From the NCBI GenBank assembly GCA_013327885.1, contig JABUMY010000009.1:1-64000 (forward strand): a stretch of 64,000 nucleotides of DNA, written 5' to 3'. The notes below the pieces were generated by a model, which ran no database searches, was not told the DNA's origin, and worked only from the letters and a program-made list of their open reading frames with translations. Below are positions 4,298 through 15,236 of this stretch, in pieces. Source of the DNA: Flavisolibacter longurius (GTDB lineage Bacteria; Bacteroidota; Bacteroidia; Chitinophagales; Chitinophagaceae). The position numbers and the translations under genes were made by a program. Each line of letters begins with the position of its first letter. Position 1 is the first letter of the stretch.

Positions 4298-5260
4298 TCA
4301 GTATTTTCTATCGGTTACAAAATTGACCAGGTCTTCAAATCCATCCCTTATTGGCGATGGCGGAAAACTGTGCAGGATATCGAGGGCCTCCTGCTTGTAG
4401 GTATTCATTTTTTCAATGGTATAGGCAATGCCACCGCTTTTGCTCACCTCATCTACAATATAAGCAATTTTGTCTTTGCGGGTATTTTGGTTTTTGAGGA
4501 TGTAAATCAATTCGCGGCGCTTTTTTTTGTCAGCATTGTTTAGGGTGTAGATGAGCGGCAGCGTCAGTTTTTTTTCCTTGATATCATTGCCTGTTGGCTT
4601 GCCAATGTTGTTGGATGTATAATCAAACAGGTCATCTTTTATTTGGAAAGCAATGCCCACTTTTTCGCCAAAGACCTGCATTTTTTGGCTGGCTTCTTTG
4701 TCGCCGGATGCTGACCAGGCACCTGCTGCACAGGCTGATGAAAGGAGTGAGGCCGTTTTGTTTTTAATGATCTCCAGGTACACCGCTTCATCCATGTTCA
4801 GCGACCTCGATTTTTCCATTTGCAGAAGTTCCCCTTCGCTCATTTTTCGAACAGCTTCGGAAAGCAGCTTAAGTATCTCAAAATCATTATTATCAAGCGA
4901 TAGCAAAAGGCCCTTAGCCAGTAAATAGTCGCCAACGAGTACCGAAATCTTGTTTTTCCAAAGGGCATAAACTGAGAAAAAACCTCTACGTTCAAGGGAG
5001 TCGTCCACGACGTCATCGTGCACCAGGGTAGCCGTGTGCAGCAACTCTACCAGTGAGGCTGCCCGGTAGGTACTCTCACTGACACTGCCGCAAAGCTTTG
5101 CCGCCAGGAATACAAACATGGGGCGGATCTGCTTTCCTTTCCGTTTAACCACATAACGCATGATACGGTCGAGCATAAACGCATTACTCCGGGCGGCTTC
5201 TTTGAACTTTTTTTCAAAGACCAGCAACTCATCCTCAATCAAATTAACGGGTAGCTTCAT
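4298..5260 (-). CDS. Trans-polyprenyl diphosphate synthase (octaprenyl/heptaprenyl type)
   Basis: This 320-residue isoprenoid synthase has the first aspartate-rich motif HDDVVDDSLERRG (Asp at 82, 83 and 86) and the second KDDLFDYT (209-213). It also has GKQIRP near residue 43 for diphosphate binding. The enzyme adds isopentenyl units to an allylic primer and most likely makes the menaquinone side chain, the usual role in Bacteroidota. Chain length cannot be read reliably; a small residue five before the first motif (TATLV) suggests a long product. It sits directly upstream of recJ in one operon. Confidence 0.92.
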   Translation of the reverse strand: MKLPVNLIEDELLVFEKKFKEAARSNAFMLDRIMRYVVKRKGKQIRPMFVFLAAKLCGSVSESTYRAASLVELLHTATLVHDDVVDDSLERRGFFSVYALWKNKISVLVGDYLLAKGLLLSLDNNDFEILKLLSEAVRKMSEGELLQMEKSRSLNMDEAVYLEIIKNKTASLLSSACAAGAWSASGDKEASQKMQVFGEKVGIAFQIKDDLFDYTSNNIGKPTGNDIKEKKLTLPLIYTLNNADKKKRRELIYILKNQNTRKDKIAYIVDEVSKSGGIAYTIEKMNTYKQEALDILHSFPPSPIRDGFEDLVNFVTDRKY

Positions 5261-5283
5261 TCGTAGTTGAAAGATTGCAGCGG

Positions 5284-5314
5284 CAAAACAACAAATTCAT
5301 CTATGTGGTACAAG
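5284..5314 (-). promoter_or_regulatory. Candidate promoter of the polyprenyl synthase-recJ operon
   Basis: On the minus strand CTTG (5311-5314) is followed after 19 nt by TTGTTTTG (5284-5291). Each half has one mismatch to the Bacteroidota TTTG/TAnnTTTG consensus, and spacing is ideal. It lies 23 nt upstream of the start codon. Confidence 0.4.
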
Positions 5315-5378
5315 AATTGCTTATTTGAGCTGACAAATTATAGTGACTTGGCAATCGCCTCAAAAATAAATTTAAAAG

Positions 5379-5409
5379 TTTGGTAATTGTCGGTCAATTT
5401 ATATTTTTG
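5379..5409 (+). promoter_or_regulatory. Consensus Bacteroidota promoter of the OmpA-family gene
   Basis: TTTG at 5379-5382 and TATTTTTG at 5402-5409 are separated by exactly 19 nt, a perfect match to the known TTTG-N19-TAnnTTTG architecture. Transcription should begin near 5414-5416, giving a leader of about 35 nt that is A/T-rich and has no Shine-Dalgarno sequence. This suits a highly expressed outer-membrane protein. Confidence 0.8.
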
Positions 5410-5449
5410 CGCTGATTAGGACATTGTTTTTAAATTTTAATTCATAGTT

Positions 5450-7033
5450 ATGGCAAGCAAAAAGTACTCTTTTTTAGCAGGTGCATTGTGCCTGTTCGCC
5501 TCGGCCGGCTTCGCTCAAACGACGACCAGCGGTTCCGGATACGATGTAGCAGATTCCACTGTAGTTCCCACCCGAAAAATGCCCCAGCAAACAGAGTTTA
5601 TGCAAGGCACTTATAATTTCCCTGCAAAACCACGCAATATGTGGGAGCTTGGATTGAAGGTAGGTTCGTTTACAGTTAGGGGTGATGTTCCTTCTAAGTT
5701 TTTATCTCCTGGTTTCGGTGTTCACATCAGAAAGGCATTGGGTTACCTGTTCTCTCTGCGCCTTAACTACATGTATGGTATTGGCAAAGGTCTCGATTGG
5801 AGAGCTGCTGGTAACTATGGCAACAACACAGCTTGGACAAGCAATGGTTACGCTGCTGCTACTGATCCTCGCGTTTTCTACAACTACAAAACAAATGTGC
5901 AGGACCTTTCTTTGGAAGGTATCTTCTCTTTGAACAACATCAATTTTCATAAAGCCCGCACAAACGTAAATGCGTATGCGTTGGTTGGTATTGGTGCTTC
6001 TACGTACGATACCAAAGTGAATGCGCTCAATGGTAATGCCAAGTACAACTTCTCTGGTATTACTGGCTTCGGTGTTCACGAAAACAGGAAAGATGTAAAG
6101 GATCAATTGGAAAATCTCCTGGATGATTCTTACGAAACACCTGCTGAGTCTTACGGCGATACCCGCGCTAAATTGGGTGGTAACACGCTGATGCCAGTTG
6201 CACACGTTGGTCTTGGCCTGGCTTTCCGCCTTAGCCCCCGTATCAACCTGGCAATTGAAGACCGTTACACCTTTACCAACAGTGACCTGATTGATGGTCA
6301 GCGTTGGGCCGAGCAAGTTACTGGTCAACCCGTTCAGTCTAAATCAAATGATTCTTACAATAACCTGACAATTGGTTTGAACATCAACCTAGGTGGACGC
6401 TCTGTAGAACCACTGTGGTGGCTGAATCCGCTGGATTATGCTTACCAGGAAATCCGCAAGCCTCGCCTGATGATCCTGCCAAAGCCTGTACTTCCTGATA
6501 CAGATGGTGACGGTGTTACTGACCAATTTGACCAGGAAGTTACGCCTGCCGGTTGCCCTGTTGATTCTCATGGTGTAAGCCTGGATACAGATGGTGATGG
6601 TGTTCCTGATTGCCGCGATAAAGAAAAAGTTACTCCTTCTTCCTGGCAGCCTGTTGATGCTGATGGTGTTGGTAAAGCGCCATGTCCAGATTCAACTTGT
6701 TTTGAAGGTTACATGACCAAAATGGGTGACTGTGCTACGCAACTGGGAGCTATGCCTAGCATTGCTTTCACTGGAAGCAACTCTCGCCTGAACAACGATC
6801 AAAGAAGCCTGCTGGCTGGTGTAGCTGCGCGTCTGCGCAACACGCCAAACTGCCGCATCACTATCGTTGGTTATTGCACAGAAAGCAAAGCCAAGCAAGG
6901 TGCTGGTTCTGCAAGAGCTGAAAATGTTCGCAAATACCTGGTAGAGAACGAAGGTATCTCTAACGATCGTATCACTGTATTGCTGGCGCAAGAAGGCGGC
7001 GACTGTGGAACGGTTGACCTGAGAGCTGAATAA
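5450..7033 (+). CDS. OmpA-family outer-membrane protein with thrombospondin type 3 calcium repeats
   Basis: This 527-residue protein has a signal peptide (1-23, ending GFAQ) and an N-terminal eight-stranded-type beta-barrel region (about 45-330). Two thrombospondin type 3-like repeats follow (DTDGDGVTDQFD near 350 and DTDGDGVPDCRD near 378), then a C-terminal OmpA peptidoglycan-binding domain (about 430-525). The barrel sits in the outer membrane and the last domain anchors to peptidoglycan. The OmpA domain is a divergent form: NH-like binding residues are poorly conserved and it ends shortly after RITVLLAQEGG. Codon use and the perfect promoter suggest high expression. It is monocistronic, with its own terminator. 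Confidence 0.92.
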   Translation: MASKKYSFLAGALCLFASAGFAQTTTSGSGYDVADSTVVPTRKMPQQTEFMQGTYNFPAKPRNMWELGLKVGSFTVRGDVPSKFLSPGFGVHIRKALGYLFSLRLNYMYGIGKGLDWRAAGNYGNNTAWTSNGYAAATDPRVFYNYKTNVQDLSLEGIFSLNNINFHKARTNVNAYALVGIGASTYDTKVNALNGNAKYNFSGITGFGVHENRKDVKDQLENLLDDSYETPAESYGDTRAKLGGNTLMPVAHVGLGLAFRLSPRINLAIEDRYTFTNSDLIDGQRWAEQVTGQPVQSKSNDSYNNLTIGLNINLGGRSVEPLWWLNPLDYAYQEIRKPRLMILPKPVLPDTDGDGVTDQFDQEVTPAGCPVDSHGVSLDTDGDGVPDCRDKEKVTPSSWQPVDADGVGKAPCPDSTCFEGYMTKMGDCATQLGAMPSIAFTGSNSRLNNDQRSLLAGVAARLRNTPNCRITIVGYCTESKAKQGAGSARAENVRKYLVENEGISNDRITVLLAQEGGDCGTVDLRAE

Positions 7034-7050
7034 GACAATAATTCATTCAT

Positions 7051-7088
7051 ACTAAAAAAGTCCTGCTGCAAAGCAGGACTTTTTTAGT
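7051..7088 (+). terminator. Strong intrinsic terminator after the OmpA-family gene
   Basis: A 17-bp perfect stem (7051-7067 with 7072-7088) has a 4-nt loop, with an A tract at its base and a T tract on the other side. It starts 18 nt after the stop codon and separates this gene from bamD. Confidence 0.92.
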
Positions 7089-7178
7089 ATCCACTTTAGT
7101 TAAATCTTAACGGCATCTGGTAACACCTTTAAAGAATTTACTGAATATTTGCTGTTAGCGATTAATTTTGCCCTCTTT

Positions 7179-7994
7179 ATGAAGTTTCCTGCCGTCATTC
7201 TTTTCTGTTTCATTCTTTTGACCGGTTGCCAGTCGATCAATAAAGTACTCAAAAGCACTGACCCGCAGTACAAGTTGCGGATGGCAGAGCAGTATTATGC
7301 CAATAAGAAGTACAACCTTGCCCAGCAGGTGTATGAGGACATCATGCCTGCTTTCCGGGGACAACCGGAATTTGAGGATATCTATTATAAATATGCATAT
7401 ACCGCTTATTACCAGCGGGATTACCTGAACGCTGAAAACCTTTTTAAAGGCTACCTGGAGATTTTTTCAACCAGTCCGCGGGCAGAAGAAGTTGATTTTA
7501 TGCGGGCTTATACCTTTTATAAGCAATCGCCTAAGCCGGCATTGGACCAAACGGCTACACGAAAGGCCATTGGCATGTTCCAGACCTTTATCAATACTCA
7601 TCCCGGATCGGCCAAAAACAAAGAGGCCAACGAGATCATTGACCAGTTGCGGGGGAAACTGGAAACAAAAGACCAGCAATCAGCTTTACTCTATTACGAT
7701 ATTGGACAATTCAGGGCGGCAGCTGTGGCCTTCAACACCATGCTGAACGATTACGCCGAAAGCACCAAAGCCGACGAATACAAACTTATGGCCATAAAAT
7801 CGTATTTTCGCTTCGCTGAACTCAGCGTGGAAGACAAAAAAGCTGAGCGATTTGAAAAAGTAATTGAAGAAGCGGCTGATTTTATGGACCGCTTTCCGCA
7901 AAGCCCGTTGGTAAAAGATGTACAGGACTTTGTAAAACAATCGGAAAACAACTTAAAAATATACACGAATGAGCCTGTTAAGACGACAACTTAA
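7179..7994 (+). CDS. bamD: Outer-membrane protein assembly factor BamD (lipoprotein)
   Basis: From the ATG at 7179 the product has 271 residues and starts with a lipoprotein signal peptide whose lipobox LLTGC places the lipidated cysteine near residue 17. An alternative start 30 nt upstream would spoil the signal peptide, so it was not used. The remainder is a run of helical TPR-like repeats (YYANKKYNLAQQVYEDI, YQRDYLNAENLFKGYLE). BamD works with BamA in inserting beta-barrels such as the OmpA protein next door. Its 3' end overlaps rpoZ by 26 nt. The order bamD-rpoZ-coaBC is conserved in Bacteroidota. Confidence 0.92.
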   Translation: MKFPAVILFCFILLTGCQSINKVLKSTDPQYKLRMAEQYYANKKYNLAQQVYEDIMPAFRGQPEFEDIYYKYAYTAYYQRDYLNAENLFKGYLEIFSTSPRAEEVDFMRAYTFYKQSPKPALDQTATRKAIGMFQTFINTHPGSAKNKEANEIIDQLRGKLETKDQQSALLYYDIGQFRAAAVAFNTMLNDYAESTKADEYKLMAIKSYFRFAELSVEDKKAERFEKVIEEAADFMDRFPQSPLVKDVQDFVKQSENNLKIYTNEPVKTTT

Positions 7995-8313
7995 TACGAA
8001 CATCACTAATAATATTGAAACACGGGACCTGAACGAGCTGAAAAGCAAAACCGGTAATATTTACGAATCAATTGCCATCATTGCTAAAAGAGCCAACCAG
8101 ATTAACATCACTGTAAAGGAAGAGCTGCACAACAAGCTCGATGAATTTGCCAGCCATACCGATTCGCTGGAAGAAATTCACGAGAATAAGGAGCAGATTG
8201 AAATTTCTAAGGCCTACGAAAAAATGCCGAATCCTTCGATCCTGGCAACGTCTGAGTTTTTAGAAGGGAAGATCTATTACCGGAAAAACGAAGAAACTGA
8301 TCTTTTCCAGTAA
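7969..8313 (+). CDS. rpoZ: RNA polymerase omega subunit (Rpb6-like, Bacteroidota type)
   Basis: This 114-residue protein matches the Bacteroidota omega form. An N-terminal stretch NNIETRDLNELKSKTGNIYESI is followed by the core helix IIAKRANQINITVKEELHNKL (about residues 37-57, the ARRANQI-like motif of omega/Rpb6). A charged linker and a short tail, SEFLEGKIYYRK, follow. Omega binds the C-terminus of beta-prime and helps assemble RNA polymerase. The start codon lies inside bamD, so translation is likely coupled. The assignment rests on the motif and on gene order. Confidence 0.85.
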   Translation: MSLLRRQLNTNITNNIETRDLNELKSKTGNIYESIAIIAKRANQINITVKEELHNKLDEFASHTDSLEEIHENKEQIEISKAYEKMPNPSILATSEFLEGKIYYRKNEETDLFQ

Positions 8314-8336
8314 TTGGTAAAGGGATAAAATTGAAA

Positions 8337-8377
8337 AGGAGAAAAAGAGTGGCGTTTCAAAGCTCTCTTTTTCTCCT
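8337..8377 (+). terminator. Hairpin between rpoZ and coaBC, possible attenuator or terminator
   Basis: A 13-bp perfect stem (8337-8349 with 8365-8377) has a 15-nt loop. The right arm is itself T-rich. It could terminate some bamD-rpoZ transcripts ahead of coaBC, but there is no separate U tail beyond the stem. Confidence 0.5.
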
Positions 8378-8465
8378 TCTTTGTTTAGTGCTAAAGCCTT
8401 CCCAGACTGTAAATTCGATTTAAGTCATACTCATTTATTTCTTTTTCTCCTTTAACGCTTAGCTT

Positions 8466-9647
8466 ATGATAGCCGGCAAAAAGATTCTTTTAGGCATTTC
8501 CGGGAGTATTGCAGCCTACAAAACACCTAACCTTGTGCGGCAACTGGTGAAAAAGGGCGCCGAAGTAAAGGTGATCATGACGCCTGCAGCAACAGATTTC
8601 GTCTCTAAGCTCTCGCTTGCCACGGTTTCAAAAAATAATGTTCTGGTTGAGCTTTTTGATGAAGCAACCTGGGCAAATCATGTACACTTGGGACGGTGGG
8701 CTGATGCTATGGTTATTGCCCCGCTTAGCTGTAATACAATGAGCAAAATGGCCAATGCTGCATGCGACAACCTGCTTTTGGCAACATTTTTATCGGCAAC
8801 CTGTCCTGTCATTCTTGCCCCGGCAATGGACGAAGACATGTGGATACACCCGGCAACACAACAAAACCTGGCAAGACTGGAAGGTTTTGGCTGCATCAAT
8901 CTTTCGGTGCAATATGGCGAGTTGGCCAGCGGCTTGGTTGGTCAAGGGCGGATGGCTGAGCCGGAAGAAATCATCGCCTACCTGGAAACATTTTTCGGGC
9001 AGCAAACTGCCCTGAAAGGCAAAAAAGCACTGGTTACGGCAGGGCCTACATACGAAGCGATTGACCCTGTACGTTTTATTGGCAATCATTCTTCGGGGAA
9101 GATGGGCGTTGCCATTGCGGAAGAACTAAAACAAAGGGGTGCTGAAGTAACCTTGGTGGCAGGACCAATGCATTTGGAAACAAATGGTATCAGGCGAATT
9201 AATGTTACAAGTGCCGAACAAATGTATACGAGCTGCCTGGCTGAACCGTATGATATCGCCGTAATGGCGGCAGCTGTTGCTGATTACACACCTGCGGAAG
9301 TAGCTGAGCAGAAAATTAAGAAGGTGGGGGAAGAACTTACGCTGACCTTGCGTAAAACAAAAGATATTCTGGCTGCGTTGGGACAGAATAAACAAAACGA
9401 CCAGGTGCTGGTTGGTTTTGCACTGGAGACGAACAATGAAAAAGAAGGTGCGTTGAAAAAACTAGCGGAGAAAAATGCGGATATGATCGTTTTGAACTCT
9501 TTGCAGGATAGCGGCGCCGGTTTCGGCCACGATACGAACAAAGCCACGTTTTACCTGAAGAATGGCGAAGAAAAATCCTTTGCCTTGAAAACAAAGAAAG
9601 CATTGGCAAAAGACATTGTTGATACTATAACGAATTTATTACCATGA
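8466..9647 (+). CDS. coaBC: Bifunctional phosphopantothenoylcysteine synthetase/decarboxylase (CoaBC)
   Basis: This 393-residue protein carries both steps from phosphopantothenate to phosphopantetheine in coenzyme A synthesis. The N-terminal flavin decarboxylase half (CoaC, about 1-180) shows ISGSIAAYK, the catalytic-histidine region NHVHLGRWADAMVIAPLS, and an asparagine/methionine segment APAMDEDMW. The C-terminal synthetase half (CoaB, from about 187) shows VTAGPTYEAIDPVRFIGNHSSGKMG. Length is normal for the fused enzyme. The stop codon overlaps the next start as ATGA, so DUF4835 is translationally coupled. Confidence 0.96.
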   Translation: MIAGKKILLGISGSIAAYKTPNLVRQLVKKGAEVKVIMTPAATDFVSKLSLATVSKNNVLVELFDEATWANHVHLGRWADAMVIAPLSCNTMSKMANAACDNLLLATFLSATCPVILAPAMDEDMWIHPATQQNLARLEGFGCINLSVQYGELASGLVGQGRMAEPEEIIAYLETFFGQQTALKGKKALVTAGPTYEAIDPVRFIGNHSSGKMGVAIAEELKQRGAEVTLVAGPMHLETNGIRRINVTSAEQMYTSCLAEPYDIAVMAAAVADYTPAEVAEQKIKKVGEELTLTLRKTKDILAALGQNKQNDQVLVGFALETNNEKEGALKKLAEKNADMIVLNSLQDSGAGFGHDTNKATFYLKNGEEKSFALKTKKALAKDIVDTITNLLP

Positions 9648-10555
9648 AGTGGATAGCATTGCCGCTGTTGTTGTTGTTGATGCAACAAGCCGGCGCCCAG
9701 GAAATGCAGGCTCGGTTTACCGTTATGGCAAACCGCGTTAGCAACCAGGTTGACAAAAAAACCTTTACAACACTGCAAACAGCGTTAACCAATTTTGTAA
9801 ACAACCGCAAATGGTCGGCAGATGCTTACCAACCGCAGGAAAAGATCCGTTGCAACTTTCTGCTGAACATCGACCAGGAACTTGGTAACAATGTGTACAA
9901 AGCAACACTGACCGTTCAATCGGCACGACCTGCGTTTAGCACCACTTATGAGTCGCCACTTGTTAACTTCCAGGACAACGAGGTGACGTTTAAATACGTC
10001 GAGTTTCAGCCAATAGAGTTCAATGAAAACCGCGTACAAGGCAATGACCCTTTAACCGCCAACTTACCAGCTGTGGTTGCGTATTATGTCAACCTCATTT
10101 TAGGTATGGACTATGCATCATTTTCCCTACGTGGCGGCGATCCTTATTTTTTAAAAGCGCAGAACATTGCCAACAACGCACCGGAAGGCGGACAAATCAG
10201 TGGCTGGAAACCGTTTGACGGCTTGCGTAACCGCTTTAAACTGGTAGAAGGTTTTGTAGACAATCGTTTTGCATTAATGCACGATGCCATTTATTCTTAT
10301 TACCGGGGCGGATTGGACCTTTTTGCAGAAAGGGAGAAAGATGCTCGGGTCGGTGTGCTAAATGCATTAAATTATCTCAATACAGTAAGTCAGGAGAATC
10401 CTGGCGCCATGGTTATCCAATTCTTTTTCCAAGGGAAGAACAACGAGTTGCTGCGCATTTTTAGTAAAGCCGACGGGCAAATGAAAACGCAGGCCCGCAA
10501 TATTCTTTCCCGCCTCGATCTTACCAATGCCAATACTTACAAAGAATTAAAGTAA
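9644..10555 (+). CDS. DUF4835 family exported protein
   Basis: This 303-residue protein has a 19-residue signal peptide ending in AGAQ. It matches the DUF4835 family, which in Bacteroidota sits after coaBC. Recognisable stretches are NRVSNQVDKKTF near residue 30, NQL-like membrane-distal segments around VVAYYVNLILGMDYASF (about 145), and GWKPFDGLRNRF near 190. The function is unknown; a periplasmic or outer-membrane location is inferred from the signal peptide. It overlaps coaBC by 4 nt, and the following DUF4296 gene begins immediately after its stop codon, so the three are one operon. Confidence 0.85.
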   Translation: MKWIALPLLLLLMQQAGAQEMQARFTVMANRVSNQVDKKTFTTLQTALTNFVNNRKWSADAYQPQEKIRCNFLLNIDQELGNNVYKATLTVQSARPAFSTTYESPLVNFQDNEVTFKYVEFQPIEFNENRVQGNDPLTANLPAVVAYYVNLILGMDYASFSLRGGDPYFLKAQNIANNAPEGGQISGWKPFDGLRNRFKLVEGFVDNRFALMHDAIYSYYRGGLDLFAEREKDARVGVLNALNYLNTVSQENPGAMVIQFFFQGKNNELLRIFSKADGQMKTQARNILSRLDLTNANTYKELK

Positions 10556-10912
10556 ATGCGGAACTGGGTCTTTATTTGTTTGCTTTTTGTTGCCTGCTCA
10601 GGTGAATCTGTGCCTAAAAATGTATTGCCGCCGCAAAAAATGCAGGAGGTTATGTATGATGTGATTCGGGCAGATGAGATGGTGGAGTTTTTACGGATGA
10701 TGGATTCAACTTACCAGCCGTTTTCAAAACGAACGGCTTTGTATGATACGGTGTTTGGGCTTCATGCGGTAACGAAGGAGAAATTTCAACAAAGCCTGAA
10801 ATACTACCAGGGAAGACCTGACCTTTTAAAAGAAATGATCAATAATATTCATTCGAAGATCACCGATACCAGCCGTAAAACGCCAACACTCCCAAAAGAA
10901 GTTGTGCCTTAA
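10556..10912 (+). CDS. DUF4296 family lipoprotein
   Basis: This 118-residue protein has a short signal peptide and a lipobox-like LFVACSG, giving a lipidated cysteine near residue 14. The conserved core LPPQKMQEVMYDVIRADEM followed by SLKYYQGRPDLLKEMINNI is typical of DUF4296, a small Bacteroidota-only family of unknown function. It starts one base after the DUF4835 stop codon and ends the bamD-to-DUF4296 gene run. Its last codon overlaps the convergent methyltransferase gene by 4 nt. Confidence 0.82.
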   Translation: MRNWVFICLLFVACSGESVPKNVLPPQKMQEVMYDVIRADEMVEFLRMMDSTYQPFSKRTALYDTVFGLHAVTKEKFQQSLKYYQGRPDLLKEMINNIHSKITDTSRKTPTLPKEVVP

Positions 10913-11706
10913 AAGTTGGTTTGATTGCCCGCTGCTTCTTTGTCTTTTACGATCACGAGATAGGCTTTGTTATCGCCCATGCGAAAAGGTTTTTTGCGGG
11001 GCGTACTGTAAACAGCTTTTAGCTGCAAGCCTGCTTCTGCTAACATATATTCCAGTTCGTATAAGGTAAAAATATAATCTACACCCTGGATCACTTCCAC
11101 CGTGCCATCGGCTGCCAGCAATGTATGTTCCGATTCGATACGGCTGGGTGAAAAGTGGAATTTATAATCAAGCATGTATTTGTAGTCATCAATAGTATAC
11201 CACTCCTTTTCCTGGAAATGCCGGATAGCAATTTCTGCAATCATCCACGTATTTAGAATAAACACACCATCGGCAGTAAGATGATTGGCTATCTTTTGCA
11301 ACAGGGCTGTTGCATCCTCGCGGTTAAAAAAGGCAAAGCTGTTGCCCATGCAGAGGGCTGCTTTAAACGTTTGCTCCAGTTCTACTTCCAGCGCACCAAT
11401 AGCTGAAGCACTAACCGGAATACCTTCTGCCTTAGCAACCACATTGATCTCATCTACATAGGCCTGCAGGTTGTCGATGGCCGTAACCTGGTAACCACGA
11501 CGTCCAAGTTCAAGGGAGTGACGGCCATATCCGCACATCAGGTCAAGAACGTTGTCATCTTTTTGCAGGTTGGCAACTTCTTCAATAAAGCTGCATTCTA
11601 CTTCTGAAAGTCCTGCGGGGATCAGCTTGCGCCAAACATCTTTGTAGTGGCCTTCAAAAAAGCGATCGTTAATGTTCGTTTGTTGCGAGTTCAATTTGTT
11701 AATCAA
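10909..11706 (-). CDS. Class I SAM-dependent methyltransferase
   Basis: This 265-residue protein has a Rossmann methyltransferase core. Motif I is VLDLMCGYGRHSLELGRRGYQVTAID, near residue 55. Downstream are CMGNSFAFF near 118 and the helper segment DGVFILNTWM. The substrate cannot be read from sequence. The only plausible start is a TTG within the end of the regulator gene upstream, giving an 8-nt overlap; no earlier or better ATG exists. The overlap suggests the regulator and methyltransferase are co-transcribed and translationally coupled. It faces DUF4296 tail to tail. Confidence 0.82.
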   Translation of the reverse strand: MINKLNSQQTNINDRFFEGHYKDVWRKLIPAGLSEVECSFIEEVANLQKDDNVLDLMCGYGRHSLELGRRGYQVTAIDNLQAYVDEINVVAKAEGIPVSASAIGALEVELEQTFKAALCMGNSFAFFNREDATALLQKIANHLTADGVFILNTWMIAEIAIRHFQEKEWYTIDDYKYMLDYKFHFSPSRIESEHTLLAADGTVEVIQGVDYIFTLYELEYMLAEAGLQLKAVYSTPRKKPFRMGDNKAYLVIVKDKEAAGNQTNF

Positions 11707-12355
11707 TTAAACGGTTACGCATGGCATACATGACCAGGCCGGCGATGGTTTTAGCACCCACCTTTTGCTTCATGTTTTGCCGGATGGTTTCGATGGTTCT
11801 CGGACTCAGGAAAACATCTTTTGAAATCTCTTCTGTGGTTTTATCCTCTGCAATGCTTTTAAGGATGCGCAGTTCTTTTTCGGAAAATTTAACCGGTGCC
11901 GGGTAGTATTGGCGTACATTCTTTTTGTGCTGCAAGCGCATCAGCACCGCTTTGTTCACCAGGTCATTAAAGTAAAAGTCATCGGTCATGCAGGCAAGAA
12001 TGGCACGGTAGATCTCTTCGGGGTCTGATGTTTTGGTAAGGTAAGCGTTGGCGCCCATCTCCATCATTTTCGTAATCATCTCCTGGTCGTCGTACATGGT
12101 GAGTACAATCACCTTTACGGCTTCGTATTCTTTCCGAATCATGTTGATGGCATTTACGCCGTCAAGTTCCGGCATCCGAAGGTCCATCAGCAAAACGTCG
12201 GGTTGCTTTAGCTGTATCTTATGCATAAGATCTTTACCATCTTCAGCCTCCCACAAAAATTTTAGTTGATCGCGGCCAGCGAGGGCCATTTTGATTCCAT
12301 CGCGAAAAATTTTATGATCATCAGCGATGGCCACCTTGATAAATTGGGTATTCAT
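11699..12355 (-). CDS. NarL/FixJ-type response regulator (DNA-binding)
   Basis: This 218-residue two-domain regulator has a receiver domain (about 6-125) with the acidic pair in IADDHK, phospho-acceptor Asp in VLLMDLRMPELDG (about residue 57) and the lysine in YLTKTSDPEE. The C-terminal LuxR-type helix-turn-helix (about 150-215) contains FSEKELRILKSIAEDKTTEEISKDV followed by LSPRTIETI. It is clearly related to the regulator at 14586-15236, which lies on the other side of the peptide and sensor genes. No histidine kinase is adjacent on its own strand, so it may share the kinase at 13716. Confidence 0.93.
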   Translation of the reverse strand: MNTQFIKVAIADDHKIFRDGIKMALAGRDQLKFLWEAEDGKDLMHKIQLKQPDVLLMDLRMPELDGVNAINMIRKEYEAVKVIVLTMYDDQEMITKMMEMGANAYLTKTSDPEEIYRAILACMTDDFYFNDLVNKAVLMRLQHKKNVRQYYPAPVKFSEKELRILKSIAEDKTTEEISKDVFLSPRTIETIRQNMKQKVGAKTIAGLVMYAMRNRLID

Positions 12356-12386
12356 GGAAATTGGTTTTGCTTGTTTAGCAGTAGCG

Positions 12387-12394
12387 CAAAGCTA
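12387..12394 (-). promoter_or_regulatory. Candidate -7 box upstream of the minus-strand response regulator
   Basis: The minus strand reads TAGCTTTG, an exact TAnnTTTG, 31 nt ahead of the start codon. A -33 TTTG is not evident at the usual spacing. Confidence 0.45.
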
Positions 12395-12889
12395 ATCGAT
12401 TTTTAAACGACAGCATAGTACACGTAAAAGTATTTCACCGATGTTCACGTTGCATTCATCGAAAGGCTACTGTTGTTGAACCGTAGATGTACGTATAAAG
12501 GATGGGAAATTATCGATTGTGGAAAGAGAAAAAACAACACACTAAAAAACGGTTTTAAAATCCGCTAAATGTTAGTACCTTGCTGTTATAAGGGTTTATA
12601 CCTAACCGTTTGATCTCGCTCAAATGCACGTCCACAAAGGGTTTCAGTAGATTTGACAGGTCGTGTTGATTTTCCGAATTTTCAAATTTTTCATCCAAAA
12701 CTGCTGCGTAAAAATACTGTTTTGCCTACGCATAAACACGTTATTTTTCATCGTATCTGTAGCGTAAGAAAAAGCGCAAACGCTTGTTAATGCTGAATTA
12801 TTAAATTAATTACTTATTTGTTAGTGTAATCTTATCGGTTGTTTCCGAATTTTACACAGACCATATTTACAGTACAAAAACTTACTGAT
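12395..12889 (+). other. Long AT-rich intergenic region upstream of the peptide gene
   Basis: About 500 nt without a convincing ORF on either strand, visibly richer in A and T than the flanking genes. It holds a 12-nt direct repeat TTTCCGAATTTT at 12671-12682 and 12842-12853. It also holds an interrupted palindrome TGCGTA/TACGCA (12705-12710 and 12727-12732). The second repeat copy ends 36 nt before the peptide start codon. No TAnnTTTG promoter is seen for the plus strand here, so the peptide gene may depend on an alternative sigma factor or an activator. Confidence 0.4.
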
Positions 12890-12979
12890 ATGGTACCAAC
12901 TACAAAAATCTTCAGAGCTATGCCTCCCGGTGGACTGGGTGGTGGTGTTGTAGAAGAAACTACATGGTGGGAATTTTAA
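12890..12979 (+). CDS. 29-residue peptide gene ending in a double-tryptophan motif
   Basis: An ATG at 12890 opens a 29-codon frame. The first ten residues are basic and polar. They are followed by MPPGGLGGG (residues 11-19), then VVEE, and the C-terminus ETTWWEF (23-29). There is no signal peptide. A hairpin terminator starts 25 nt after its stop codon, so it looks like a discrete transcription unit. It is followed by a seven-helix membrane protein, a histidine kinase and a LuxR-type regulator. The WW near the C-terminus recalls ComS/XIP peptides of streptococci, but that is only an analogy. A second ATG (12920) would give a 19-residue peptide. I do not recognise the family. Confidence 0.55.
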   Translation: MVPTTKIFRAMPPGGLGGGVVEETTWWEF

Positions 12980-13004
12980 TTCTTGATTCCTTTTAAATTT
13001 TCAG

Positions 13005-13056
13005 AAGGTTTTCTATATTTGGCCCAAAACCAAAACTATAGAAAACCTTTTTTATT
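13005..13056 (+). terminator. Hairpin terminator or attenuator behind the peptide gene
   Basis: Arms 13005-13017 and 13037-13049 are perfectly complementary over 13 bp, with a 19-nt loop, and the right arm runs into TTTTTTATTTT. This is a good intrinsic terminator for the peptide gene. Its right arm also contains the probable start of the next protein, so read-through or refolding would be needed to express the sensor genes from the same transcript. Confidence 0.75.
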
Positions 13057-13703
13057 TTCTGGATGTCTTTTCTGCTCTTATTCCAATATCCTTCTTCCTG
13101 ATTTATTGGAAAAGTTCGTACTCTATTATTGGGTTGCGAATCCTATTCTTCTATGCTATAGCAATTTCAGTCATCAATTTATTGCAATATTTAGATGACA
13201 CTAACAGCTTTTGGTATGAGTTATTTACAGTAGTAGAAGCATGTGCCTTCATTGGATTCTTGTACCTCCAATTAAAATATTCTAAAGTAAAAAGAGCATT
13301 GCTCGTAATTGGAGGGGCATTTATTGTATTTAATATACTTTATCCTTATCTGATTTCAGAGGTCAAACAATTTGATTCTATTCCAATCGGGATTGAAACG
13401 ATCATTATCTTGATTTTTTCATTTTACTACCTGTATGAGAAAACCAACGATACAACAACTTTATACATTTATAGTACCTTTTCGTTTTGGATTGTGATTG
13501 GTATGGTACTTTATTTAGCCGGTTCATTTTTTATTTATCTCTTTGCAACTTCAATAAGCAAAAATATTTTGAAGTCGTATTGGTCAGTGACAAACATTTT
13601 AGCCATATTGAAGAATTTACTTTTTGCAATTGGTATTATTGTGAATTCTAAACCAACCAAAAAAATTTCATTGTCCGATTACGAATTGAGCAGCCTAAAC
13701 TAA
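13038..13703 (+). CDS. Seven-helix membrane protein, probable sensory partner of the histidine kinase
   Basis: The frame is open from 12987 to the stop at 13701-13703. The usual automated start, TTG at 13134, would begin inside the second membrane helix and cannot be right. Starting from the ATA at 13038 gives a natural N-terminus (ENLFYFLDVFSALIPISFF) and 221 residues. Seven hydrophobic helices are visible, roughly at residues 9-26, 33-52, 62-82, 87-109, 115-135, 146-170 and 180-204. There are no catalytic residues. CTG at 13059 is the other candidate start. I do not recognise a named family; its place 12 nt before a kinase that lacks a sensor domain suggests it supplies signal recognition. 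The gene is markedly AT-rich. Confidence 0.65.
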   Translation: MENLFYFLDVFSALIPISFFLIYWKSSYSIIGLRILFFYAIAISVINLLQYLDDTNSFWYELFTVVEACAFIGFLYLQLKYSKVKRALLVIGGAFIVFNILYPYLISEVKQFDSIPIGIETIIILIFSFYYLYEKTNDTTTLYIYSTFSFWIVIGMVLYLAGSFFIYLFATSISKNILKSYWSVTNILAILKNLLFAIGIIVNSKPTKKISLSDYELSSLN

Positions 13704-13715
13704 CCCTGGAAAATA

Positions 13716-14561
13716 ATGTACCTATTACAATCCAATACCAATAGTCCTATTTCTCTGGTGCTTTTTCTGGGTACTCTTGGCATGTTGATCCTTACCATTG
13801 GCCTTATTCTCTTTATTATATTTCACCAACGAAAAGTTATCCGCTTCCAGCTTCGCCTGCAGGAAATGGAAAAAAAGCAGCAGAAGATCTTGCTGAATGC
13901 CTCTATCCGTCTGCAAGAGGAAGAGCGCCAGCGACTGGCTGCTGACCTGCACGACGATGCAGGGCCGTTGCTGGCCACTGCCCGGTTGTACCTCAACGAA
14001 AACCTGGTGAACATGGACAAAGCCACCCAATTGCAGTCAATTTTCCAGGCACGTCAAATACTCGACGATACCATTCAACTGATCCGCAATATCAGCCACA
14101 GCCTGATGCCACCAACACTGAAGAATTTCGGTCTTGAGTCCGCGGTAAACGACCTTTTTCAAAAGATCAGCGGTTCGGGTGCCATCAATGCAAGCAGCCG
14201 CTTTCACGATTACAAGGAGCGTTTGAAGGCTGACAAGGAGCTTTTCATTTTTCGCGTGGTGCAGGAACTGGTCAATAATATTTTAAAGCATAGTGGTTCG
14301 AGCTTTATACATTTGACCCAAAATTTTCAAAACGATAACTGTTATATCCGCATACATCATGATGGCCGTGGACTGGTACAAAGTGATTTTGATAAGCTGA
14401 ACAAAAGCAAAAGCGGTTTAGGATTAAAAAATATATCCAGCCGCCTGCGGGTTTTACATGGTAAGATTCATTTTGAAAAAGATGTATCGCAAACGTATTT
14501 TAAAGTTACAATTGAAGTGCCCCGTGAAGATGTACCCGAGGAGATGCTCTACAATTCTTAA
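13716..14561 (+). CDS. Sensor histidine kinase, HisKA_3/NarX-DegS type
   Basis: This 281-residue kinase has one N-terminal membrane helix (about 14-36), a short coiled linker, and a HisKA_3 dimerisation domain. The phospho-acceptor His lies in LAADLHDDAGPLLA (about residue 78). The ATPase domain shows the N-box ELVNNILKHSGSS (about 190), G1-like HHDGRGLV and G2 SGLGLKNISSRL (about 232). There is no periplasmic sensor domain, so signals must come from a partner, most simply the seven-helix protein encoded 12 nt upstream. The downstream LuxR-type regulator is the expected phosphate receiver. Confidence 0.92.
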   Translation: MYLLQSNTNSPISLVLFLGTLGMLILTIGLILFIIFHQRKVIRFQLRLQEMEKKQQKILLNASIRLQEEERQRLAADLHDDAGPLLATARLYLNENLVNMDKATQLQSIFQARQILDDTIQLIRNISHSLMPPTLKNFGLESAVNDLFQKISGSGAINASSRFHDYKERLKADKELFIFRVVQELVNNILKHSGSSFIHLTQNFQNDNCYIRIHHDGRGLVQSDFDKLNKSKSGLGLKNISSRLRVLHGKIHFEKDVSQTYFKVTIEVPREDVPEEMLYNS

Positions 14562-14585
14562 TTTTAAAGTGAAATCTGATTTCCG

Positions 14586-15236
14586 ATGAATGTGATTAAA
14601 GTGGCGATTGCCGATGACCACAAGATCTTCCGTAAAGGCGTGATACTTTCTCTTCGTCCGTACACCAATATAAAATTTGTACTGGAAGCAGAGAACGGCG
14701 ATGAGTTGCTGGCCGGCCTGGCCGAAGCCTCCCCGGATGTGGTGCTGATGGACTTACGCATGCCACAAAAAGACGGTATCGAAACCACAAAGATCGTCAG
14801 CAAGCAATACCCAAACATGTTTGTACTGGTATTGAGCATGTACGAAGACGAACGCTTTGTTTCGCACCTGATGGAAAACGGTGCCAATGGCTACTTGCTG
14901 AAAAATGCAGAGCCCCAGGAGATTCGCAAAGCCATTATGGATGTATTTGAAAAAGGCTATTACCTCAATAATTTCGTGAACCGCATCCTAATAAAAAAAG
15001 CACACTCTAAACAAAAAGCTATTCCATCGCTCAACAGTGAAATCACCATCAGCGACAAGGAAAGAGATGTGTTGCGGTTTATTTGTATGGAATTTACCGC
15101 ACAGGAAATTGCACAAAAGATGGACATCAGTCCGCGTACCGTTGAAGCCATCAAAGACAGGTTAATGGAGCGTTTTGGCAGTAAGAACACGGCAGGCCTC
15201 GTATTTTTTGCGGTGAAAAACAACCTTGTCGATTAA
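14586..15236 (+). CDS. NarL/FixJ-type response regulator, partner of the adjacent kinase
   Basis: This 216-residue regulator begins MNVIKVAIADDHKIFRKGV. The phospho-acceptor Asp is in VVLMDLRMPQKDG (about residue 57) and the lysine in YLLKNAEPQE. The LuxR-type helix-turn-helix follows (about 148-213), containing ISDKERDVLRFICMEFTAQEIAQK. It lies 24 nt after the kinase gene in the same direction. Its receiver closely resembles that of the minus-strand regulator at 11699-12355. Targets may include the peptide promoter region, but no binding site can be assigned from sequence alone. Confidence 0.93.
   Translation: MNVIKVAIADDHKIFRKGVILSLRPYTNIKFVLEAENGDELLAGLAEASPDVVLMDLRMPQKDGIETTKIVSKQYPNMFVLVLSMYEDERFVSHLMENGANGYLLKNAEPQEIRKAIMDVFEKGYYLNNFVNRILIKKAHSKQKAIPSLNSEITISDKERDVLRFICMEFTAQEIAQKMDISPRTVEAIKDRLMERFGSKNTAGLVFFAVKNNLVD

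Follow-up and report, generated by a model that had tools for sequence, protein, structure and literature searches.

Does the small open reading frame (ORF) at positions 12890-12979 of contig JABUMY010000009.1 of Flavisolibacter longurius encode a peptide signal for the membrane protein and kinase whose genes lie directly behind it? The window analysed here consists of the first 64,000 nucleotides of this contig (GenBank assembly GCA_013327885.1, forward strand). The locus comprises the peptide gene, the genes of a seven-helix (7TM) membrane protein, a histidine kinase and a NarL-type response regulator, and a second NarL-type regulator gene reading the other way. A pheromone-like peptide-signalling system with a split sensor is the best explanation of this locus, and a reasonably probable one. 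Computed support for it comes from the gene order, the peptide slot, the seven helices, the focus of sequence divergence, the cassette-like replacement of genes and the linkage of a methyltransferase gene. The features of the locus are listed below.

10909-11706, minus strand: methyltransferase (Methyltransf_25), candidate peptide-modifying enzyme, overlapping the divergent regulator gene
11699-12355, minus strand: second, divergent NarL-type response regulator (Response_reg and GerE above Pfam cut-offs)
12862-12889, plus strand: leader of the peptide gene, CATATTTACAGTACAAAAACTTACTGAT, with a putative promoter role for CATATTTAC
12890-12979, plus strand: 29-residue peptide gene, K-x-x-R-x-x-P ... 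WWE family, from slot comparison across genus and family
13003-13053, plus strand: terminator-like hairpin with a T run after it, from folding of 12980-13062
13014-13021, plus strand: TATATTTG box (TAnnTTTG) inside the hairpin, from a motif count across family loci
13038-13706, plus strand: 7TM membrane protein and putative receptor, with an ATA at 13038 as its uncertain start codon
13716-14561, plus strand: histidine kinase (HisKA_3 and HATPase_c, Pfam) with one N-terminal membrane helix read from the sequence
14586-15236, plus strand: NarL-type response regulator (Response_reg and GerE above Pfam cut-offs)

A conserved peptide slot

The product of the ORF, MVPTTKIFRAMPPGGLGGGVVEETTWWEF, has 29 residues and no Cys, and it matched no Pfam or NCBIfam family at cut-off. 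When the peptide alone was searched against 58 genomes, one clear homologue was found besides the window (in genome G006, 72% identical), because the peptide diverges fast. The codon comparison suggested by an earlier note on this DNA could be made for one pair only, which gives weak figures (7 synonymous and 9 non-synonymous changes; proportions pS 0.34 and pN 0.14). The locus kinase was found in 16 of 18 genomes of the window's genus, including 13 of the 13 that are at least 90% complete. All 15 loci of the genus in which the slot was readable contained a peptide of 21-29 residues with K-x-x-R-x-x-P; in the sixteenth (G004), a locus of 2287 bases, the stretch read did not cover the slot. Fourteen of these peptides carried WW, followed in 13 cases by an acidic residue. 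The peptide of the Flavisolibacter ginsengisoli locus (L143) is MTKKVFRAVPPIEWPTTPSWWEF.

Across the family, 61 loci were compared, namely 60 fetched from the best 63 places plus G006 (two of the three places left out lie near a contig start); the loci are related, so the counts are not independent. The slot before the 7TM gene held a peptide of 15-29 residues in 27 loci and a protein of about 110 residues in 34. An ATG ORF of 14-35 codons with Trp among its last five residues was present within 260 nt upstream of the 7TM gene in 26 of the 27 short-form loci. On the reverse strand the same criteria picked out 2 of the 27, and 200 dinucleotide shuffles yielded 1.79 on average and never more than 5. 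Many of the short peptides have a single Trp. These results confirmed the 29-codon ORF as a real member of a fast-diverging peptide family. Within the fetched stretches, the order 7TM, kinase and downstream regulator was found in 58 of the 61 loci, and the divergent regulator upstream on the opposite strand in 59. The kinase adjoins the 7TM as a separate gene in 60 loci, and in the remaining one (L089) it lies beyond the fetched stretch.

The region behind the peptide gene (12980-13062) folds at -19.9 kcal/mol (z -3.97), and none of 200 shuffles was as good. An AlphaFold2 model of the window 7TM showed seven helices with a mean confidence score (pLDDT) of 92.5. The charges of 47 sequences fit an N-terminus outside and a C-terminus inside, with 614 Lys and Arg residues on the inner and 228 on the outer side of the assumed topology. 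The window 7TM matched no Pfam or NCBIfam family at cut-off, AgrB included, and a PDB sequence search with the 7TM profile gave no match. Foldseek placed a marine rhodopsin first (E 0.03), followed by G protein-coupled receptors, with none at 0.001, and this was set aside as a general seven-helix likeness only. The best NCBIfam match of the kinase was MctS (123 bits against a cut-off of 700), and its score for Strep_LiaS was 64 bits (cut-off 450).

The earlier note, made from the letters of this DNA, had described a 29-residue peptide gene with its own terminator, a 7TM protein, a kinase with one membrane helix and two NarL-type regulators, the second reading the opposite way, and all of these were borne out. 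The peptide was also said to have no signal sequence, and none is evident in our reading. The note had named conservation of the short ORF in relatives as a test, which the slot peptides of the genus passed. It had expected a PPGGxGGG and WW pattern to be conserved; PPGG was shared with the nearest relative only, and what has been kept across the genus is K-x-x-R-x-x-P and, in most cases, WW plus an acidic residue.

Long and short forms

The proteins of about 110 residues share a domain with an invariant Cys (QPxCxGI) and mostly a GIVADR-like motif, followed by a variable tail in which one Trp column is invariant across 25 aligned rows. Larger small proteins fill this slot elsewhere, and the 29-residue gene represents one of its forms. 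Short forms occupy two places on the 7TM tree, where the short pair L088/L092 is nested in the long-form clade; two changes of form are needed on this tree and three on the kinase tree, from which L069 (partial) and L089 (none) were missing. The long-form domain can therefore be missing while a Trp tail remains. Assuming a long ancestral form, like that of the distant cassettes described below, the short form arose twice.

Two long forms contained no Pfam family, neither the 7TM nor the one long form compared with PHROGs had a match at cut-off, and the small proteins scanned in Pfam and NCBIfam gave nothing at cut-off; their weak NCBIfam matches were to unrelated families and were set aside. 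The structure model of a long form was poor (pLDDT 61), and the fold search with it was uninformative.

A second set consisted of 80 named loci, partly from the same genomes as the 61. The 7TM was present in 79 of these, of which 28 had the long form, 33 a Trp peptide and 18 neither, six of the last group being at contig starts and 12 having room. Several of the loci with more distant kinases and no Trp peptide (L207-L220) share a MKFM.QLFINHK-like stretch, which is perhaps another peptide class or a DNA element.

Where the variation sits

Mean identity over 1540 pairs (from the 56 of 61 loci with all four genes) was 76.7% for the kinase and 81.1 and 84.2% for the regulators, as against 30.7% for the 7TM; mean column identity was 81% in 28 kinases and 36% in 47 7TMs. 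Between the window and G006 the kinases are 97.9% and the regulators 97.7 and 99.5% identical, compared with 58.8% for the 7TM. Among 11 matched proteins of this pair the 7TM was the lowest (55.6% over 189 residues), the next being at 75.7%.

Three loci from three species of one genus (L054, L062 and L086) encode identical kinase and regulator proteins beside 7TMs of 42-45% identity and differing peptides. The kinase genes of L062 and L086 are 97.1% identical (synonymous divergence dS 0.145, non-synonymous divergence dN 0), and their 7TM genes 56.8% (dN 0.51). At the junction between 7TM and kinase, the identity of L054 to either of the other two changes from 55-60% to 91-93%. In seven of eight short-form pairs with kinases at least 95% identical, 7TM identity was below 60%.

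Peptide and 7TM distances were correlated when kinase distance was held (partial r 0.475, p 0.0002, n 25, the 27 short loci without L069 and the near copy L046), and also within the MKK class alone (r 0.21, p 0.04, n 17). Polymorphism is concentrated in the peptide and the 7TM, while the kinase and regulators change slowly. This co-variation fits a signal and its receptor; a pair of subunits could also produce it.

Promoter-like and operator-like elements

The last 18 nt before the start contained the sequence [CGT]TTAC in 20 of the 26 genes for short peptides (1.4 in shuffles) and, with several possible starts allowed, in 23 of the 34 genes for long forms (4.2 in shuffles). A TAnnTTTG box, which we take to be the -7 element of Bacteroidota, lies 50-82 nt before the proline of the first 7TM helix (TM1) in 60 of the 61 loci (shuffles: mean 1.05, maximum 4), which suggests that the 7TM gene has its own promoter. 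Perfect palindromes with arms of at least 6 occur within 75 nt upstream of 14 of 26 peptide starts (12% in mononucleotide shuffles), for example in L054, L069, L085, L040 and L080. They lie mostly 34-42 nt before the start and differ in sequence (CAAATCGATTTG, AGAAATATTTCT, TCAAATCTGATTTGA, TCGAATATTCGA); no such palindrome precedes the window peptide start. These palindromes may be operators for a regulator.

The reading frame of the window 7TM starts upstream of 13134, and ATG, GTG and TTG are all missing from it before TM1. Between the TAnnTTTG box and the TM1 proline, none of these codons was found in 35 of the 61 loci, TTG or GTG only in 21, and ATG in five. ATA occupies the aligned start position in 32 of the 61, and in several genus members (e.g. 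G010, G011, G015 and G017) we read an in-frame ATG four codons before the ATA. Conserved non-AUG initiation on a leaderless or near-leaderless transcript is possible.

A linked methyltransferase and other neighbours

A homologue of the window methyltransferase (linked METHYLTRANSFERASE) lies directly behind the divergent regulator, on the same strand, in 23 of the 60 other loci, all of them short-form. With the window counted, the main short clade has it in 24 of its 25 loci, the exception (L082) being without both methyltransferase and regulator, whereas all 34 long-form loci, 31 of which have room for it, lack it. Genome-wide at 1e-12, it was detected once in each of nine main-clade genomes and in none of nine genomes with long or nested short forms. 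By analogy with ComQ and ComX, this enzyme could be a candidate modifier of the peptide.

The nine other neighbours were assigned by Pfam to polyprenyl synthase, OmpA, YfiO, DFP/Flavoprotein, DUF4835, DUF4296, cobalamin adenosyltransferase, DUF922 and FkbM methyltransferase. The polyprenyl synthase, YfiO, DFP/Flavoprotein, DUF4835 and DUF4296 genes form a block at 4298-10912 in the window. Where other loci have homologues of parts of this block, these mostly lie on the opposite strand beyond the downstream end of the 7TM gene; relative to the block, the cassette thus appears inverted. Two PF00348 genes are present in the window's genome (G000); neither adjoins the locus, and one lies at 4298-5260, at a distance of about 8 kb. 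Among 15 further genomes, the copy number is two in 14 and three in one, and in 12 of the 15 a PF00348 gene lies no more than about 11 kb from the 7TM; ordinary synteny is the simplest reading of this pattern. A ComQ role for the PF00348 gene was rejected, as the gene is not adjacent.

Proposed mechanism and alternative explanations

We infer the binding, modification and export of the peptide, the direction of signalling and its targets as follows. The small gene would yield a peptide that carries the signal in its Trp-containing C-terminal part and that might be methylated by the neighbouring methyltransferase and exported via general machinery. The 7TM, with its N-terminus outside and its C-terminus inside, would recognise the peptide and switch the sensorless HisKA_3 kinase through membrane contacts. 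The kinase would then phosphorylate the NarL-type regulator encoded next to it, and the divergent regulator might be a further substrate. With peptide and 7TM varying as allelic pairs and the kinase and regulators fixed, such pairs would form private channels.

Several observations weigh against this model. Neither the short nor the long form has an evident signal sequence in our reading, and the ten window neighbours examined by Pfam include no transporter and no peptidase. The G003 peptide has no Trp, and 12 of the 79 named loci have no Trp peptide despite room for one (11 of these are among the 14 lowest-ranked kinase matches). The outer and inner halves of the 7TM showed no difference in variability (p 0.65). 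The eighth of the short-form pairs, L044/L046, has 7TMs 99.6% identical and identical peptides, and the contrast is milder in 22 long-form pairs with kinases at least 95% identical (7TMs 68.9-97.3%). Between L054 and L062 or L086, identity also drops in the non-coding stretch that precedes the peptide gene, which is what DNA free of constraint would show. The methyltransferase is absent from both nested short loci (L088/L092), and its pattern concerns one clade only and may be compatible with plain synteny.

The peptide or small protein might instead stay in the cell as a private cofactor tuning its own 7TM and kinase, which would sense something else, in the way that LiaF tunes LiaS; the co-diversification would then reflect subunit contact and not cell-to-cell signalling. 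Such a role would agree with the missing signal sequences, the conserved domain of the long form and a kinase that weakly resembles LiaS (64 bits against a cut-off of 450). It is nevertheless unlikely, although to be taken seriously, as the domain is missing from short forms at two places on the tree, near-complete replacement of peptide and 7TM beside an unchanged kinase is more typical of signal specificity groups, and some distant partners look exported. The pathway could also have the peptide as its output, or the peptide could resemble a bacteriocin, for which the 7TM would serve as immunity protein or sensor. Toxin-immunity pairs can diverge likewise and a modifying enzyme would fit, but with the locus in 16 of 18 genus genomes, a sensorless kinase adjoining the 7TM wherever the fetched stretch extends far enough, and no transporter among the ten neighbours, this is improbable.

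A leader peptide of a Trp-sensing attenuator, with the hairpin controlling the 7TM and kinase genes, would account for WW codons followed by a terminator-like hairpin. This explanation is very improbable, since the slot is filled by a protein of about 110 residues with invariant residues in 34 of 61 loci, the TAnnTTTG box suggests that the 7TM gene has a promoter of its own, a single Trp is present in many of the peptides, and Rfam gave no match at its gathering score.

Comparison with known systems

ComQXPA, whose regulator ComA is of the NarL type, is the closest working likeness, and the locus is not a member of that group. According to passages of two papers on this system, ComX is extremely variable and has a Trp near its end, where ComQ modifies it, a polymorphic membrane domain precedes HisKA_3 and HATPase_c in ComP, and ComA is the most conserved component (PMC4008528, PMC5385187); a passage of the former gives PF05952 as the ComX family (PMC4008528). 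As far as these passages go, the locus resembles ComQXPA in its very variable small precursor with Trp near the C-terminus (26 of 27 short loci, 25 aligned long forms), in a multi-helix sensor and HisKA_3/HATPase_c kinase with the regulator most conserved, and in a candidate modifying enzyme at the locus. The polymorphism likewise lies in signal and sensor and not in the kinase end, which recalls the pherotypes of Bacillus. It differs in that the sensor is a separate 7TM protein and not fused to the kinase, and in that the putative modifying enzyme is a methyltransferase and not an isoprenyl transferase, no PF00348 gene being adjacent. The window peptide and two long forms had no match to PF05952, and the locus belongs to a Gram-negative phylum, has a second, divergent regulator and encodes a precursor of 15-29 residues.

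The peptide and receptor of staphylococcal agr are hypervariable and the response regulator is conserved, which is also the case here; in contrast to agr, the 7TM has no AgrB-type family match, the window peptide has no Cys and the kinase is of the HisKA_3 type. LiaFSR shares with the locus a separate membrane protein, a HisKA_3 kinase and a NarL-type regulator. We know of no peptide partner in LiaFSR-type systems, whereas one is present here, and the kinase is far below the cut-offs for Strep_LiaS and MctS. The earlier note had likened the peptide to ComS/XIP, which is also short and leaderless with WW near the C-terminus. ComR, however, is a cytosolic Rgg regulator, and two NarL-type regulators and a 7TM/kinase pair take the place of an Rgg-type receptor by the peptide gene, which makes ComQXPA the apter analogue. 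Split-receptor peptide signalling, as the note had proposed, stands as the best-supported reading, with the analogue, the content of the slot and the methyltransferase link changed.

Related cassettes in other Bacteroidota

Of 395 Bacteroidota genomes searched with the 7TM profile, 31 gave a match at 1e-10. Matches outside the family came from 19 genomes, in 18 of which a locus was available and read. A small ORF (104-249 codons) lies directly before the 7TM on the same strand in 17 of these 18 loci, a count made without a chance control, at 11-101 nt from the 7TM profile match; in L120 another 7TM takes its place. A CPxxC-like tail was found in 14 of the 18 loci, and a crude kinase motif behind the 7TM in ten. 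The small proteins of L118, L124, L133 and L136 were read as having signal- or lipoprotein-like N-terminal stretches, and in L103-L108 distant long-form homologues precede, by eye, 7TM-like and kinase-like ORFs. Since a small protein precedes the 7TM in 17 of 18 loci, the locus in the window may be a more widespread type of cassette in minimal form.

The window's genome contains two further 7TM/kinase pairs (G000:C22:377157, L098, and G000:C50:9132, L099), one of them behind an 87-residue protein with a CPKPPC tail. In L212, a CPPYC motif and a WW end occur in a single protein.

Taken together, the data may be described, tentatively, by a phylum-wide split-receptor class of signalling systems in Bacteroidota. 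The ligand would be a peptide or small protein with a CPxxC or Trp tail and the seven-helix receptor a protein of its own, the remaining components being a sensorless kinase and NarL-type regulators. One clade of Chitinophagaceae would have a leaderless peptide, maybe methylated by a dedicated enzyme. Its ligand-receptor cassettes would replace one another as pherotypes from species to species, and translation of the receptor would often begin at a non-AUG codon.

Allelic specificity groups of peptide signals are known from Gram-positive bacteria; to our knowledge, no such signalling has been established for Bacteroidota. A literature search for such a system found no description, preprints and most subscription journals lying outside the search. 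If the proposed system is real, it would provide a cell-to-cell signal for a large group of environmental bacteria, a natural series of peptide-receptor pairs for studies of specificity, an example of a seven-helix receptor in bacteria that acts on a kinase encoded by another gene, and perhaps a methyltransferase of a new kind that modifies peptides.

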